From Clostridia bacterium (GTDB taxonomy: Bacteria; Bacillota_A; Clostridia; Christensenellales; Aristaeellaceae), in assembly GCA_017464225.1 (NCBI GenBank), contig JAFUDW010000134.1, forward strand, positions 1-8,703: a DNA stretch of 8,703 nucleotides, given 5' to 3'. Both the position numbers and the translations under genes were made by a program. Shown in pieces: positions 3,985 through 8,703 of the stretch. Under the pieces are notes generated by a model that did not search any database, was not told the DNA's origin, and was given only the letters and a program-made list of their open reading frames with translations. Within the stretch, counting starts at the first letter, position 1, and every line of letters starts with the position of its first letter.

Positions 3985-4034
3985 GCCCGCGCATATCCTC
4001 CCAGGAGGTGATATGCGTGCGGCGGGCTTTTTTG
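3985..4034 (+). terminator. Terminator-like hairpin that encloses the L,D-transpeptidase ribosome binding site
   Basis: The outer stem is GCCCGC (3985-3990) / GCGGGC (4022-4027) followed by six T (4028-4033). The inner stem is GCATATC (3991-3997) / GATATGC (4010-4016), with CTC/GAG pairing at the tip. The AGGAGG Shine-Dalgarno (4003-4008) is in the tip and the GTG start codon (4017-4019) is in the 5-nt bulge between stems. The stem plus T-run is a plausible intrinsic terminator for the sigma/anti-sigma operon. However, its T-run is codons 4-6 of the next gene, so that gene must either be read through the hairpin or start from a promoter inside the anti-sigma gene. I see no such promoter. Confidence 0.65.
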
Positions 4035-4691
4035 CTGCTGGGATTGATCGTTTTGCTGACAGCCTGCGCGGGCGGCGCGCCGGAGGCGGTCACGGCGTCG
4101 GCGGGCGTGCCGGAAAGAAAATGGATCCTGATCGAAACCGACCTGAAACGGCTGACGGTGTACCAGGGGACAGAAATCGTGAGCCGTTATCCCATCGCGT
4201 CGGGCGCTTGGGACACGCCGTCGCCGATCGGCGCGTTTTATATTGACAGCCGATTTAAAACCGAAATGTCGGGCTTTGGCACCCGGTTTTTGCACCTCAC
4301 CGTGCCCTGGGGGCAGTACGGCATCCATGGCACCAACCGCCCGGAATCCATCGGCGGCAACGCCTCTCACGGCTGCATCCGCCTGCGGGTGAAGGACGCC
4401 GAAGCGCTTTACGGCCAGGTGCCCAATTGGACGCGGGTGATCATCGAGGGCGGCCCCTACGGCCCCTTGGGTGACAGCCTGCGGTCGCTGCGGCCCGGCG
4501 ACCGGGGCAGCGCCGTTCAGCTGGTGCAGTTCAGGCTGAGCCAGCAGGGCTTCTACGCCGGGGCGGACGGCGTATACGGCGCGGCCACCTCCCGGGCGGT
4601 GCTGGCCGCCCGTAGGGCCTTTGGGCTGTCCGACCGGGATATCGTGGATCAGGCGCTGTACGAAAGGCTGGGCATCATGCTGTTTGAGTGA
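4017..4691 (+). CDS. Lipoprotein L,D-transpeptidase (YkuD) with C-terminal peptidoglycan-binding domain
   Basis: Forms 3-3 (meso-DAP to meso-DAP) peptidoglycan cross-links or attaches substrates to peptidoglycan, acting outside the membrane. The 224-residue product starts at GTG 4017, chosen because AGGAGG (4003-4008) lies 8 nt upstream and because it gives a compact lipoprotein signal, MRRAFLLLGLIVLLTAC, with Cys17 as the lipidated residue; an in-frame GTG at 4008 overlaps the Shine-Dalgarno. The YkuD domain (about 33-145) carries the family signature: HGTN with His104, then SHGCIRLR with His118, catalytic Cys120 and Arg122. A linker leads to a PG_binding_1-type domain (about 160-215; DRGSAVQLVQFRLSQQGFY, then DGVYGAATSRAV). 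The gene follows the sigma/anti-sigma pair and precedes spoIIIAA by 32 nt. It could therefore belong to the ECF regulon or serve the sporulation envelope. Translation may be limited by the hairpin over its start. Confidence 0.93.
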   Translation: MRRAFLLLGLIVLLTACAGGAPEAVTASAGVPERKWILIETDLKRLTVYQGTEIVSRYPIASGAWDTPSPIGAFYIDSRFKTEMSGFGTRFLHLTVPWGQYGIHGTNRPESIGGNASHGCIRLRVKDAEALYGQVPNWTRVIIEGGPYGPLGDSLRSLRPGDRGSAVQLVQFRLSQQGFYAGADGVYGAATSRAVLAARRAFGLSDRDIVDQALYERLGIMLFE

Positions 4692-4723: not shown

Positions 4724-5587
4724 ATGGATTTGATCAGATGCTTTCCGCCCCTCCTGCGGGAGGAGCTATGCGGACTTGATTTGGATGCGGTCAGCGATAT
4801 CCGGCTGTTTGCCGGGCGGCCCTGCGCCGTGCGCCTGGAGGAAGGCGAATACCTGTCCGAGTATATCCCAGATGCGGGAGAGCTGGAGGATCTGGCTCAG
4901 GCGCTCACAGGCCGCATGCTGCGGCTGGCGCCCGGAACAGGGGAAGGGTATATCACCCTGCGCGGCGGCCATCGCATGGGGCTTTGCGGCCATGTGACGC
5001 CTGGACCGGGCGGCCCCGTGCTCCAGGGCGTGGGGAGCCTGTGCATCCGCGTGGCCCATGAAAAACCGGGCTGCGGCAGGGGCCTGGCGGCCTGCGTGCG
5101 GCAGGGTGGGGGCGTGCTGGTGGCCGGCGCGCCGGGTAGCGGCAAAACCACCATGCTGCGGGATGCCGTGCGCATCCTGTCGGATGCCGGCACTGTGGTG
5201 GGGTTGGCGGATGAGCGCGGCGAGGTGGCGGCCTGCCTGAATGGCGTGCCGCAGCTGGATGTGGGTATGCGCACCCATGCGGTGGACGGATGCGCCAAGG
5301 CCATGGCGCTTCGTTGGCTGCTTCGGGCCATGAGCCCGCAGCTGTTGGCCGTTGACGAATTGTATGGGGATGCGGATTGCCAGGCTGTGCGGGAGGCGGC
5401 GGCCTGCGGCGTGCCTGTGCTGGCAACGGCGCACGCGGGCAGCGCGGCCGAGCTCTGCGCCAGGCCGGGCATCCGTGCGCTGCTGCTGGAGGGTGCGATT
5501 CGGCGGGTGATGTTCCTGCATGATCGCAGGCCCGTGCTCACGGCGGAGGCGGGGGAAGTGCTGGAGGCCGCGTGTTTGGGGCGCTGA
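4724..5587 (+). CDS. spoIIIAA: Stage III sporulation protein AA, ATPase of the mother cell-forespore channel
   Basis: A cytoplasmic (mother-cell) ATPase of the secretion-ATPase superfamily, related to type II/IV secretion ATPases, thought to power the SpoIIIA-SpoIIQ channel. Its 287 residues are slightly shorter than the B. subtilis protein. Visible in order: the family N-terminus with VSDIRLFAGRP (about 22-32); Walker A GAPGSGKTT (135-143, Lys141); ADERGE (162-167); and Walker B LLAVDE (Asp211/Glu212), followed by ATAHAGS. The ATG at 4724 matches the usual family N-terminus, but no Shine-Dalgarno precedes it and a SigE-like -10 ends only 6 nt upstream, so the message may be leaderless or re-initiated from the L,D-transpeptidase gene 32 nt upstream. 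The last 16 nt overlap spoIIIAB. It is the first of eight canonical spoIIIA genes. Confidence 0.95.
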   Translation: MDLIRCFPPLLREELCGLDLDAVSDIRLFAGRPCAVRLEEGEYLSEYIPDAGELEDLAQALTGRMLRLAPGTGEGYITLRGGHRMGLCGHVTPGPGGPVLQGVGSLCIRVAHEKPGCGRGLAACVRQGGGVLVAGAPGSGKTTMLRDAVRILSDAGTVVGLADERGEVAACLNGVPQLDVGMRTHAVDGCAKAMALRWLLRAMSPQLLAVDELYGDADCQAVREAAACGVPVLATAHAGSAAELCARPGIRALLLEGAIRRVMFLHDRRPVLTAEAGEVLEAACLGR

Positions 5588-6048
5588 CGGCGGCGCTGGC
5601 CTGTGCGCTGCTGGGGATCTGGGCGGCGCACAGCCTTCGCGCACGGAGCAGGATGCTTAGAGCGTGGCAGCGAGCGCTGGCGGGCATGTACGCCTCCTGC
5701 GCCTATGCGCGGGCCGACAGCGCGCAGATCCTGCGGGCCGGGGCCTATGAGATCCCTGCGCTGGGCGATTTGGCCCGGGCGGTGGAGCTGAACGGGGCCG
5801 ATGCCGGAATGCTGTTTGAATCCCAGAAAACCGGCAGGCTGCGGCCCGAGGAATATACCGTTCTGCTTTCCGTGATGCGGGCGGCAGCCTCGGGCGGACG
5901 GGAGGAGATCGCCGCCGCCATCGCCTACGCCCAGGAGCGGTTTCGCTCCTTCTGCGAGGCGTGCGACGGCAAACGCGACGCCGACGCGCGGATGTACGTT
6001 ACGCTGGGGCTTTTGTCCGGCGTATGCGCGTTCCTGATTCTTTGGTAG
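5572..6048 (+). CDS. spoIIIAB: Stage III sporulation protein AB
   Basis: A membrane protein of the SpoIIIA channel in the mother-cell membrane around the forespore. It has 158 residues, with a hydrophobic N-terminal helix (1-22), a cytoplasmic helical region, and a C-terminal membrane helix (about 138-158, ending CAFLILW). This hairpin-like layout recalls GspF/type II secretion platform proteins, to which AB has been compared. The middle segment (RALAGMYASCAYARADSAQIL, then AILKTGRLRPEEY-like turns around 75-95) fits the family. The start is GTG 5572, inside spoIIIAA, with GGAGG (5563-5567) only 4 nt upstream; the 16-nt overlap suggests translational coupling. The assignment rests on length, topology and position between AA and AC. 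Confidence 0.88.
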   Translation: MFGALTAALACALLGIWAAHSLRARSRMLRAWQRALAGMYASCAYARADSAQILRAGAYEIPALGDLARAVELNGADAGMLFESQKTGRLRPEEYTVLLSVMRAAASGGREEIAAAIAYAQERFRSFCEACDGKRDADARMYVTLGLLSGVCAFLILW

Positions 6049-6056
6049 GAGGGTGA

Positions 6057-6257
6057 ATGATGCAGGTACAGCAGCTGCTCCGCATTGCGGGCATCGGCAT
6101 CCTTGTCACGGTGATCGCCCAGATCCTCACCCGGGCGGGCCGGGAGGATATGGCCACGCTCACCGGCATCGCCGGGCTGGCCATCGTGCTCATGCTGGTG
6201 GTGTCGCTGGTGGCCGAGCTGTTCACCAGCGTGCAGAGCATCTTTGGCCTGTACTGA
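6057..6257 (+). CDS. spoIIIAC: Stage III sporulation protein AC
   Basis: A 65-66 residue integral membrane protein of the SpoIIIA complex, with two hydrophobic helices (QQLLRIAGIGILVTVIAQIL and MATLTGIAGLAIVLMLVVSL) joined by a short polar turn (TRAGRED). This is the family's standard size and pattern. Two consecutive ATG codons lie at 6057 and 6060; AGGAGG (6047-6052) is 4 and 7 nt upstream respectively, so 6060 may be the real start. The stop TGA shares its A with the ATG of spoIIIAD (TGATG), which couples the two genes. Confidence 0.92.
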   Translation: MMQVQQLLRIAGIGILVTVIAQILTRAGREDMATLTGIAGLAIVLMLVVSLVAELFTSVQSIFGLY

Positions 6258-6646
6258 TGGATAGTTTTTGGAAATTCCTGGGGATGGCCGTGCTGGCCGC
6301 CGTGATGGCGCTGACGCTCCGCGCGGCGAACAAGCCCTTTGGAACGGTGTTTTCGCTGGCGGCAGGGATCATCCTGCTGCTGGCGTTGGCCGAGCCCATC
6401 GCCCAGGCCGCGGAAACGCTGTCTGAGATCGCCCGGGCGTCTCGGAGCGACAGCGAACACGTTGCGCTGATCCTCAAAATGCTGGGCGTGTCCTTTGCCG
6501 CCGAGCTGGCGGCGCAGGCCTGCCGGGACGCCGGCGAGGAAGGCATTGCCCTGCGGATCGAAATGTCGGCCAAGGTCATGCTGGTGACGCTGTCGGCGCC
6601 GCTGCTTCGCCAAATGGCACGGCTCATCCTGGAGCTGACGGCATGA
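6257..6646 (+). CDS. spoIIIAD: Stage III sporulation protein AD
   Basis: A 129-residue multi-spanning membrane protein of the SpoIIIA complex. Hydrophobic helices lie at about 5-25 (FLGMAVLAAVMALTL), 32-52 (TVFSLAAGIILLLALAEPI) and near the C-terminus (MLVTLSAPLLRQMARLIL). The middle segment ILKMLGVSFAAELAAQACRDAGEEGIA is characteristic of the family, which resembles AC over part of its length. The frame is open further upstream (to 6053), but that part overlaps spoIIIAC out of frame and is not coding. The ATG at 6257 overlaps the AC stop by 1 nt and starts the expected MDSFWKFLG N-terminus. The stop overlaps spoIIIAE by 4 nt (ATGA). Confidence 0.92.
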   Translation: MDSFWKFLGMAVLAAVMALTLRAANKPFGTVFSLAAGIILLLALAEPIAQAAETLSEIARASRSDSEHVALILKMLGVSFAAELAAQACRDAGEEGIALRIEMSAKVMLVTLSAPLLRQMARLILELTA

Positions 6647-7755
6647 GAAGGCTGGCGCTTCTGGCGCTGCTGACGCTGCTGGTGCTGCCGGGACAAGCCG
6701 AATCGCTGGAGGACGGGCTGAACCGGGCGCTGGATATGGTGGACGTGCCCGCGCTGGAGCAGGCGTCGGGACAGACGGGACTGGGGGAGCTGCTGCTTCG
6801 CCTCGCCCGGGGCGAAACGGTATGGGACGCCGCCGCCACAGCGGAAGCGTTCAAGGAGCTGGCGGCGGGAGAAATCAAAGCCAGCCTGTCCCGCGTGCTG
6901 GGGCTCATGGCGCCCGCTCTGCTCTGCGCCCTGGCGGGCGGGCTCCGGCCCGGGAGCAGCGTGGCCAGAATGGCGGAGAACGCCTGTTTTCTGGTGTTGG
7001 CCGCCGTGCTGACGGCCGATCTGCGGGTATATCTGCTGGAGGCCGACGGTACGGTCAGCCGCGCCGCCCAACTGATGCAGACGCTTTTTCCCATGCTGCT
7101 GACGCTGCTGGCGGCGGTGGGGGCCACCAGCGGTGCGGCGCTCTTTCAGCCGGCTGTGACGGCGGCCAGCGGCACCATGACGGCGCTGGTGCGCGGCGTA
7201 TCGCTGCAGCTGGCGCTAGGTGTGGCGGTGGTCACCTTGCTGGATCATTTATCGCCCCGCATGCGGCTGAGCAGGCTTGCCGCCCTGCTGCGCTCGGTAT
7301 CCAGCTGGACGCTGGGCGCGGCCTTCACGGTATTCATCGGCGTCACAGCCATGCAGGGGCTCACAGCCGCCGCGGCGGACGGCATCGGGATCCGGGCGGC
7401 CAAGTACGCTGTGGATAATCTGGTCCCGGTGGTGGGCGGCATGTTTGCCGATACCATGGATACGCTGGTGGGCTGCGCCATGCTGATCAAAAACGCGCTG
7501 GGTGTCACCGGCCTTTTTCTGCTGCTTTCGGTGGTCGGCGCGCCGATGCTGCGCGTGCTGGGAGCGGTACTGATATACAGGCTGTGCGCCGCGCTGCTGC
7601 AGCCCGCCGTGCCTGACCGCGTATCGGCCATGATCCATGATTTTTCGGACGTGATGATGCTGCTGTTTATCATCGAGCTGTCGGTGGGCGCCATGTTCAT
7701 GCTGCTTGTGGCGCAGATGCTGGCGGTGGGCAATCTGACGGTGGGGCTGAGGTGA
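6643..7755 (+). CDS. spoIIIAE: Stage III sporulation protein AE
   Basis: The largest membrane component of the SpoIIIA channel: 370 residues, close to the usual ~390. It has a signal-peptide-like N-terminus (MRRLALLALLTLLVLPGQA), an extracytoplasmic helical stretch (about 21-80), then about seven or eight membrane segments, including LMQTLFPMLLTLLAAVGA, LQLALGVAVVTLLDHL and a C-terminal cluster from about 285. The most diagnostic region is the segment TLGAAFTVFIGVTAMQGLTA, then DGIGIRAAKYAVDNLVPVVGG and GCAMLIKNALGVTGL, near residues 225-295. The ATG at 6643 overlaps the spoIIIAD stop (ATGA), with GGAG (6631-6634) 8 nt upstream. The 3' end carries the Shine-Dalgarno (GAGGTG, 7749-7754) of the next gene, spoIIIAF. 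Confidence 0.95.
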   Translation: MRRLALLALLTLLVLPGQAESLEDGLNRALDMVDVPALEQASGQTGLGELLLRLARGETVWDAAATAEAFKELAAGEIKASLSRVLGLMAPALLCALAGGLRPGSSVARMAENACFLVLAAVLTADLRVYLLEADGTVSRAAQLMQTLFPMLLTLLAAVGATSGAALFQPAVTAASGTMTALVRGVSLQLALGVAVVTLLDHLSPRMRLSRLAALLRSVSSWTLGAAFTVFIGVTAMQGLTAAAADGIGIRAAKYAVDNLVPVVGGMFADTMDTLVGCAMLIKNALGVTGLFLLLSVVGAPMLRVLGAVLIYRLCAALLQPAVPDRVSAMIHDFSDVMMLLFIIELSVGAMFMLLVAQMLAVGNLTVGLR

Positions 7756-7761
7756 AAAACA

Positions 7762-7932
7762 ATGAAGGATTTTCTGCGCAGCGTGGGCATGCTGGCCCTC
7801 CTGCGCATGACGGCGGATATGCTTTTGCCCGAGGGAGGAACGCGGAAAATGTGCGAAACGATGCTGGGGTTCATGATGACCCTGGGCATCCTTTCGGCGC
7901 TGGGACGGCTGCTGCCCATGTGGCTCGGCTGA
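7762..7932 (+). CDS. spoIIIAF: Very short stage III sporulation protein AF (membrane part only)
   Basis: A 56-residue ORF in the frame not used by the longer ORF covering it. GAGGTG (7749-7754) lies 7 nt upstream of ATG 7762. It encodes MKDFLRSVGMLALLRMTADM, LLPEGGTRKMCETMLGFMMT, LGILSALGRLLPMWLG: two hydrophobic helices around the conserved family turn LLP-G, Arg/Lys, then the GL..IL pattern of the SpoIIIAF N-terminus. Its place between AE and AG is exactly where spoIIIAF belongs. B. subtilis SpoIIIAF is about 206 residues, with a soluble ring-building-motif domain after the two helices. Here that domain is absent, and no remnant is possible because spoIIIAG begins before the AF stop (overlap 7920-7932). 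The alternative is a decayed gene, but the intact start, signature and spacing argue for a functional mini-AF that anchors in the membrane without forming a ring. Confidence 0.82.
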   Translation: MKDFLRSVGMLALLRMTADMLLPEGGTRKMCETMLGFMMTLGILSALGRLLPMWLG

Positions 7933-8270
7933 AAACCTTTCTTCGCGCCAGGTACAGCCTTTTGCTGATCCCATTGGCCGCTGCGGCGCTGGCGTTGGTG
8001 TTGTCCGGCGGGGACGGCGGCATGACCCGGGAGGAAAAGCGCTTGGCCGATACGCTTTCCAGCGTGCAGGGAGCGGGGAGGGTGCGCGTAACGCTCTATT
8101 ATGAGCAGAGCGGCGGCGCCTTTTCGGGCGCGGCCCAGCGGGTGACAGGTGCGCTGGCGGTGGCGCGGGGAGCGGGAAGCGTGGGCGTGCGCCTTCGGCT
8201 CACGGAGGCGCTTGAAACGCTGCTTTCGCTGGAGCCGGGCAGCGTGCTCGTGCTGGAAATGGAGGAATAA
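7920..8270 (+). CDS. spoIIIAG: Compact stage III sporulation protein AG (ring-building protein without the usual insertion)
   Basis: A single-pass protein of the intermembrane space that oligomerises into the channel ring. The proposed start GTG 7920 gives 116 residues: a positive N-terminus (MARLKTFLRAR), a membrane helix (about 13-29), then one ring-building motif (about 37-116) with the family pattern of helix EKRLADTLSSVQGAGRVRVTL, strand VTGALAVARGA, helix LRLTEALETLL and strand VLVLEM. The frame is open upstream to 7752, but that stretch is the out-of-frame shadow of spoIIIAF. No clear Shine-Dalgarno precedes 7920, so translation is probably coupled to AF (13-nt overlap). CTG 7929 is a less likely start. 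B. subtilis AG is about 229 residues with a ~60-residue insertion between the first strand and the conserved GVLVVA strand, which builds the beta-triangle. Here only about 14 residues separate them. Confidence 0.88.
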   Translation: MARLKTFLRARYSLLLIPLAAAALALVLSGGDGGMTREEKRLADTLSSVQGAGRVRVTLYYEQSGGAFSGAAQRVTGALAVARGAGSVGVRLRLTEALETLLSLEPGSVLVLEMEE

Positions 8271-8275
8271 GCCGG

Positions 8276-8703
8276 ATGAAAAAACGTCTTTCCCGGGGCT
8301 TGATGACGGCGCTGATGCTGTGCGCGGTGCTCAGCGCCTTTTATCTCAGATCGGAAAATGAAAGGGCTGTCGGCGTAATCCCGGTGGAGCGCGTGTTTCT
8401 CCGGGGAAGCGTTACGCCTGCGCCTTTGGGCGAAAGACAGCGGCGGGACGATCAGCGCGGCCAGGAGCTGGCCGCCCTTGGCGCGTTGGCGGCCCAGGAT
8501 GAAGCGGCGGCCGCCCTCCTGCAAAAGCTGGTGGAACGGGCCGAAAACGAACAGGCCGTGGAAAGCGCGCTGTCGGCTTTGGGATATGAGGGGGCTATGT
8601 GCAGCCTTCGCTCGGACGCGGCGGCCATCTGCGTGAAAGAGCGCATGGACGCGGCGCAGGCCGCTCAAATTATAGAGCTGTGCGCCAGGATCGTGGGCGT
8701 TGA
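8276..8703 (+). CDS. spoIIIAH: Stage III sporulation protein AH, partial (runs off window end)
   Basis: A ring-forming channel protein that in B. subtilis binds SpoIIQ from the forespore side. The ATG at 8276 follows spoIIIAG by 5 nt, with GGAGG (8261-8265) 10 nt upstream. 142 residues are visible and the frame is still open at the edge; the TGA at the very end is out of frame. Layout: positive N-terminus, membrane helix (about 8-24), a linker (25-60), then the YscJ/FliF-like ring-building domain from about 60 (RQRRDDQRGQELAALGALA, a helix AAALLQKLVERAENEQAVES, then LGYEGAM, a strand ending in ICVKE, and AAQIIELCARIVGV). The segment around SALGYEGA and the following strands align by eye with the AH family. 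Three cysteines (109, 119, 136) fall in the exported domain. Confidence 0.88.
   Translation, partial: MKKRLSRGLMTALMLCAVLSAFYLRSENERAVGVIPVERVFLRGSVTPAPLGERQRRDDQRGQELAALGALAAQDEAAAALLQKLVERAENEQAVESALSALGYEGAMCSLRSDAAAICVKERMDAAQAAQIIELCARIVGV

Follow-up and report, generated by a model that had tools for sequence, protein, structure and literature searches.

A SpoIIIAF reduced to its membrane hairpin in a broad lineage of mostly uncultured gut Clostridia

Described SpoIIIA systems and the locus in the window

In Bacillus subtilis and other Firmicutes, SpoIIIAF (AF; PF09581, TIGR02896) joins an N-terminal hairpin to a soluble domain that has the fold of a ring-building motif, as stated in the available part of a paper citing the AF structure work (PMC8092281), and a table within the accessible part of a 2012 survey (PMC3533761) gives its length as 206 aa, which we read as that of the B. 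subtilis protein. SpoIIIAG (AG) of B. subtilis forms a 30-fold ring with a beta-barrel (5wc3); its motif has an insert between the first two strands (PMC4768692), and this insertion forms most of the ring's cup (PMC6934232), both according to excerpts of those papers. Sporulation in the absence of AF is already in print: in excerpts of two papers (PMC7924749 and PMC3533761), the SpoIIIA sets of Planococcaceae (Lysinibacillus, Sporosarcina) are described as having no AF, and several of these species form spores; the authors of the second paper doubted the Lysinibacillus genome sequence. A hairpin-only AF is new as far as we found, as no description of one turned up in the literature on SpoIIIAF, spoIIIA rings, Christensenellales, and Aristaeella, a coverage that consisted of partial texts and left subscription papers aside.

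The window (the whole stretch of 8,703 nucleotides analyzed here) carries a spoIIIA operon that runs from AA to AH, from position 4724 to the end of the window, with all eight genes present. Its features are as follows.

4724..5587, + strand: spoIIIAA, the ATPase (PF19568, E = 3.3e-42; TIGR02858, E = 6.4e-53, under its cut-off)
5572..6048, + strand: spoIIIAB (PF09548, E = 4.9e-16)
6057..6257, + strand: spoIIIAC (PF06686, E = 6.1e-15; TIGR02848, E = 1.1e-20, above its cut-off)
6257..6646, + strand: spoIIIAD (PF06686, E = 1.1e-18; TIGR02849, E = 7.3e-21)
6643..7755, + strand: spoIIIAE, stop codon at 7753-7755 (PF09546, E = 1.7e-68)
7750..7755, + strand: Shine-Dalgarno AGGTGA for AF, read from the sequence, 6 bases 5' of the ATG and overlapping the AE stop codon
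7762..7932, + strand: spoIIIAF, 56 aa, membrane hairpin only, with an ATG start (profile matches, selection, relatives, AlphaFold2 model)
7828..7836, + strand: AF hairpin turn P23-E24-G25 (column conservation in short and full-length AFs)
7920..8270, + strand: spoIIIAG, shortened; start uncertain (GTG 7920, CTG 7929, or upstream GTG 7851 or 7752; TIGR02830, E = 5.6e-6, under its cut-off)
8028..8258, + strand: AG ring-building motif (helix-strand-strand-helix-strand) without the usual insert between strands 1 and 2 (model, fold matches, lengths)
8276..8703, + strand: spoIIIAH, running off the window (PF12685, E = 6.8e-10)

The window AF has its operon position, N-terminal hairpin, LP-x-G turn, K29, and G36 in common with SpoIIIAF of B. 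subtilis and other Firmicutes but lacks the ring-building soluble domain (56 versus 206 aa). Likewise, the window AG shares one membrane helix and the ring-building motif with the B. subtilis protein (5wc3) but is without the insert between the first two strands. In Planococcaceae, as far as the excerpts go, AF is absent together with AA, AB, and often AD, whereas the window has all eight genes and an AF cut to its hairpin. Directly 5' of spoIIIAA lies a 227-aa ORF (4008-4691) that, judged by eye, is L,D-transpeptidase-like with a peptidoglycan-binding end.

Identity and structure of the 56-residue SpoIIIAF

The ORF at 7762-7932 is a real SpoIIIAF without its soluble domain. The original prediction had read it as spoIIIAF, with its own Shine-Dalgarno and the AF position, and with the soluble half entirely gone, and both parts of this reading were borne out by the AGGTGA, the gene order AE-AF-AG-AH, and matches to the AF families confined to the N-terminal hairpin. 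Specifically, the product matched PF09581 with an E value of 1.3e-4 and 22.4 bits (cut-off, 28.3) over profile positions 3-43 of 185, and TIGR02896 with an E value of 5.9e-5 and 23.4 bits (cut-off, 61.3) over positions 3-53 of 106; apart from these two, nothing in Pfam or NCBIfam attained an E value of 1. The ORF stops at residue 56, and there is no match past profile position 43 (Pfam) or 53 (NCBIfam). As the soluble domain is missing, we describe the protein as a hairpin-only variant whose orthology is judged from its position and its hairpin. Since the window hairpin lies under the curated cut-offs, such forms may be why profile surveys report some genomes as lacking spoIIIAF.

The same matches recur among 34 short AFs (that of the window and those of 33 of 35 related loci, L012 and L023 being omitted): at E values of 0.1 or below, 28 matched PF09581 and 32 matched TIGR02896. 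When a profile of 64 AFs of at most 110 aa was aligned by hhalign with the hairpins of 158 full-length AFs, the probability was 98.5% and the E value 1.9e-14. An AlphaFold2 model built from the 34 sequences has helices at residues 2-20 and 28-55, with a mean pLDDT of 67.9, i.e., moderate confidence; a search for solved structures bearing the AF hairpin gave none that were relevant.

Across 73 hairpins, short and full-length, P23 is near-invariant (at least 90%). In 157 full-length AFs, relative entropy was 1.55 bits in hairpin columns versus 0.79 bits in soluble columns, about a 2-fold difference, and the hairpin was more alike than the soluble part in 2,797 of 3,000 random pairs of full-length AFs, as would be expected if the hairpin makes essential contacts. 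The seven most conserved columns of these 157 sequences (W4, P46, P23, Y30, G36, G25, and K29 in the numbering of L048) are all in the hairpin. By the same ungapped numbering, the window AF keeps P23, G25, K29, and G36 and differs at F4, M30, and A46, the last of these at a position where a proline is highly conserved in full-length AFs.

SpoIIIAC and SpoIIIAD (PF06686) are likewise small membrane proteins of this operon, and SpoIIIAC is a two-helix hairpin. A relationship between them and AF was considered and is unsupported: the hhalign probability was 0.7-32%, and PF06686 was not among the families matched by the window AF or by the 34 short AFs.

Spread and history of the short SpoIIIAF and the reduction of SpoIIIAG

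A short AF characterizes a broad lineage of gut Clostridia, most of them uncultured. In one AE-based scan, AF was short at all 35 related loci (51-60 aa in 33, 72-74 aa in two) and full-length at none; these loci are labelled Clostridia, Clostridiales, Christensenellaceae (L015, L024), Oscillospiraceae (L032, L034), and Bacillota (L025). An order-wide sample of 101 genomes, 82 of which have AE, gave 81 loci (one of the 82 was not fetched), with a full-length AF at 53, an AF of 51-62 aa at 17, one of 68-110 aa at 9, and an AF that was cut or not found at 2; the resulting short count of 26/81 includes L057, a repeat of L018. A class-wide sample of 196 genomes, 141 with AE, gave 110 loci (31 of the 141 were not fetched, 5 of these being covered by the order sample), of which 106 had a full-length AF, three a short one, and one a cut one. 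Overall, AF lengths fall into 52 rows at 51-62 aa, 14 at 68-110 aa, and 158 at 133-234 aa.

AF was called by its position after AE together with a profile that had been rebuilt from the hits it gave, the score floor being 2 bits; start codons were chosen by script. Weak profile matches alone were not used for calling, because TIGR02896 at an E value of 0.1 rings in 6 of 14 control genomes. Several of the short-AF calls are weak (e.g., L114, 6.8 bits; L074, 9.2 bits; L085, 11.0 bits), and L091, L102, L109, and L112 came to light only once the profile had been rebuilt. Dropped before the AE tree were L002 (AE frame broken), L014, L023, L057, L116, and L142 (near or exact duplicates), L163 (masked letters), and L070 and L171 (cut by contig ends); AF is missing from the contig of L041. 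In L014, 248 bases lie between AE and AF.

On the AE trees, the short AFs fall essentially into a single group, with several isolated cases besides. In the unrooted FastTree of 217 rows, 50 rows without any full-length AF (42 of 51-62 aa and 8 of 68-110 aa) group together with a support of 89, a node that is not starred; smaller sets holding the window (8, 30, and 34 rows) are starred, and at least eight changes between short and full-length are needed overall. An unrooted IQ-TREE of 78 hand-picked rows agrees with this group apart from the long branch L113, whose placement inside it makes the short-AF label require two changes. In the same tree, the separate short AFs L044, L074, L174, L177, and L179 sit among full-length rows, with L079 beside them.

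AG is reduced as well, which, like the lineage-wide spread of the short AF, the original prediction had not noted. The part after its membrane helix is 85 residues in the window, versus a median of 144 at loci with a full-length AF, and it is 84-109 residues in the window and 34 related loci (no AG was found in L034). The model of the window AG (116 aa; mean pLDDT, 90.5) has a membrane helix and a helix-strand-strand-helix-strand motif, and the model together with fold and profile matches places the ring-building motif after the membrane helix. The insert between motif strands 1 and 2 that builds the beta-barrel is absent in the window and its relatives. The fold matches of the model are rings of type III secretion systems and flagella, the best and the sole match below 0.001 being 2y9j (PrgK; E = 4.4e-4); SpoIIIAG itself (5wc3) ranked 14th in this fold search (E = 8.2e-3) and was matched by the AG profile at the sequence level with an E value of 3.8e-10.

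Outside the branch of the window, the short-AF members L036, L038, L040, L042, L043, and L046 keep the AG insert; hence, if the tree is right, AF would have lost its domain before AG lost its insert. Among 214 loci, 43 have both proteins short, 16 a short AF and a long AG, 21 a full-length AF and a short AG, and 134 both in the longer form. A link between the two losses, of the AF ring domain and of the AG insert, was also considered: the counts look associated, but starred branches offer only six independent pairs, and the sign test on them was not significant (median p, 1), leaving the coupling unproven.

The start of AG varies among relatives. Many relatives have an ATGA at the AF stop. In the window and L001-L004 and L007, CTG overlaps the AF TGA in five of the six sequences, with ATA there in L001; candidate GTG starts lie at 7920 in the window and 49 bases upstream in L003 and L007. 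The likely AG start is about 100-170 bases past the AF stop in L014, L015, L020, L023, L028, and L030, versus a tight overlap in many relatives, with earlier possible starts at 48-51 bases past the AF stop in L014 and L030.

Proposed function and competing readings

On the strength of these comparisons, we consider it probable that the ORF encodes a functional SpoIIIAF that was reduced to a two-helix membrane hairpin in an ancestor of the lineage and works without a ring of its own. In an ancestor of these gut Clostridia, a full-length AF, with hairpin and soluble ring-building domain, would have been cut back from its C terminus, the hairpin persisting ever since. Most likely, the hairpin sits in the membrane of the mother cell next to SpoIIIAE and the remaining A proteins, as a small subunit that would work through its conserved LP-x-G turn and second helix, the positively charged turn presumably facing the cytoplasm. 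Ring building between the two membranes would then fall to AG and AH, with no part for AF. Three observations strengthen the reading that the hairpin may be sufficient and the ring part dispensable: how widely the trait is spread, the sporulation markers in most of the 26 genomes described below, and the stronger conservation of the hairpin relative to the rest of full-length AFs. Retention of the membrane part with loss of the ring-forming half suggests that the essential function lies in the former. A lineage that has all eight genes, minus the ring domain of one protein and the barrel-forming part of a second, is a natural separation of membrane role and ring role that needed no engineered mutation; it bears on the role of the SpoIIIA-SpoIIQ complex and on whether its stacked rings form a conduit. 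We put forward more tentatively, as a possibility, that this gut lineage sporulates and runs a stripped-down SpoIIIA machine in which the AF ring domain was lost first and the AG insert later in the branch of the window, so that the essential AF would be a gate-like membrane hairpin, a membrane core and simple AG and AH ring motifs would remain, and the large rings of Bacillus would be additions rather than the core of the machine.

The alternative with the best standing, although an unlikely one, is that AF is a decaying remnant on its way out of a lineage that is losing sporulation. In its favor, the accessible text of a 2025 paper on a neighboring isolate describes the cultured relatives of that isolate (Aristaeella, Beduinella, Luoshenia, and Christensenella) as non-sporulating (PMC12694931), and the available part of another paper predicts a few Christensenellales MAGs to be spore-formers but most of 19 human ones not to be (1 of 19; PMC12536801); these relatives and MAGs may lie outside the short-AF group. 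According to the portion of the 2012 survey available, spoIIIAF is missing in the Spo0A-bearing non-spore-formers Caldicellulosiruptor, Ethanoligenens, Eubacterium rectale, and Ruminococcus albus (PMC3533761), so a reduced AF could go with sporulation loss. The markers point mainly the other way: among 26 genomes of the short-AF group, SpoIVA was matched in 22 (missing in 4), SpoVAC/AEB in 20 (missing in 6), SASP in 23, and SigG at more than 390 bits, a line set after the scores had been seen, in 22, of which 12 were above the curated cut-off. All four markers were present in 16 of these 26 genomes of unstated completeness, and at least one was missing in 10. The five genomes with separate short AFs had SpoIVA in 5/5, SpoVAC in 5/5, SASP in 2/5, and SigG above 390 bits in 3/5. 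We infer that short-AF carriers probably sporulate. Further, the narrow peak of AF lengths at 51-62 aa is maintained over AE distances of more than one change per site, and pN/pS in the AF frame was 0.26-0.75 in all 15 pairs of six sequences (the window, L001-L004, and L007), which are related, so that the pairs are not independent; both findings speak against decay. AE pN/pS exceeds 1 between L002 and the five others, and its AE profile score is lower; the AE frame seems broken in this MAG (L002:644-1708), and these AE values are to be ignored for that reason. Ten order-sample genomes that have a full-length AF (G014, G025, G050, G059, G061, G066, G081, G089, G100, and G105) showed no alpha/beta SASP (PF00269) at an E value of 1e-5 and weaker best SigG scores (280-359 bits), with SpoIVA and SpoVAC in 10/10.

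A second alternative, that AF is split rather than reduced, with the ring-building domain supplied in trans by another gene, appears distinctly improbable. PF09581 is a weak detector of the ring domain (the full-length AF of L090 was matched only to position 82 of 185), and a diverged copy could therefore be missed; still, nothing above the PF09581 cut-off was matched elsewhere in the nine genomes searched, in which AF itself is also below the cut-off, and in the window, as in many relatives, only tens of bases at most separate the AF stop from the start of AG, which leaves no room between them.

The opposite history, in which the short AF came first and other lineages acquired the soluble domain, is also very unlikely in our judgment. 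The trees are unrooted and the short group makes up nearly one side, so that loss rather than gain, which we prefer, is argued only. Arguing for loss are the full-length AF at 106 of 110 loci of the class sample, the separate short AFs among full-length relatives, and the listed length of 206 aa. Moreover, in three group members with longer tails (86, 104, and 110 aa), the AF profile match extends as far as positions 53, 79, and 72 of 185, with the tails of the intermediates L038 and L047 matching past the hairpin, and these partial matches suggest a stepwise loss from the C terminus.

Against the reading of AF as a true gene one may set the longer ORF that overlaps it in another frame (7752-8270, 172 aa), which exists as the original prediction described; it is highly improbable that this ORF is the true gene, i.e., an AG whose long N-terminal extension overprints AF. 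All six of the closest sequences (window included) retain its in-frame GTGs, at -181 and -82 counted from where the AF stop ends, and no ATG lies near the AF stop in any of the six. However, the AF frame is under purifying selection and the overlapping frame is not: pN/pS in the latter was 1.07-4.21, above 1 in 15/15 pairs. Of the two results named in the original prediction as refuting it, a full-length AF in relatives and selection on the overlapping frame instead of AF, neither was seen. In AF codons 2-56, the variable columns at codon positions 1, 2, and 3 numbered 30, 17, and 35 of 55 each. The overlapping frame stays open in 44-81% of synonymous recodings of AF, and its openness thus needs no explanation. 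By our reading, both GTGs are at letters largely fixed by AE or AF residues, that at 7752 overlapping the AE stop codon and that at 7851 lying in AF codons 30/31, and their conservation is probably a by-product. Among 20 database proteins listed, none exceeds 139 aa, and an extended AG would in any case not remove AF.

Two expectations about annotation did not hold. AF had been thought hidden from automatic annotation, but the protein database contains four predicted 56-aa proteins, that of the window included, one of which is named "hypothetical protein" and one of which has a PF09581 match; hence AF is visible to gene callers and merely unnamed. AG had been expected to be falsely extended to 7752, but the database entry for the window has 102 aa and starts inside the membrane helix. 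Finally, a sequencing or assembly error that cut a full-length AF can be dismissed, as the short form is present at 35/35 related loci from other records.
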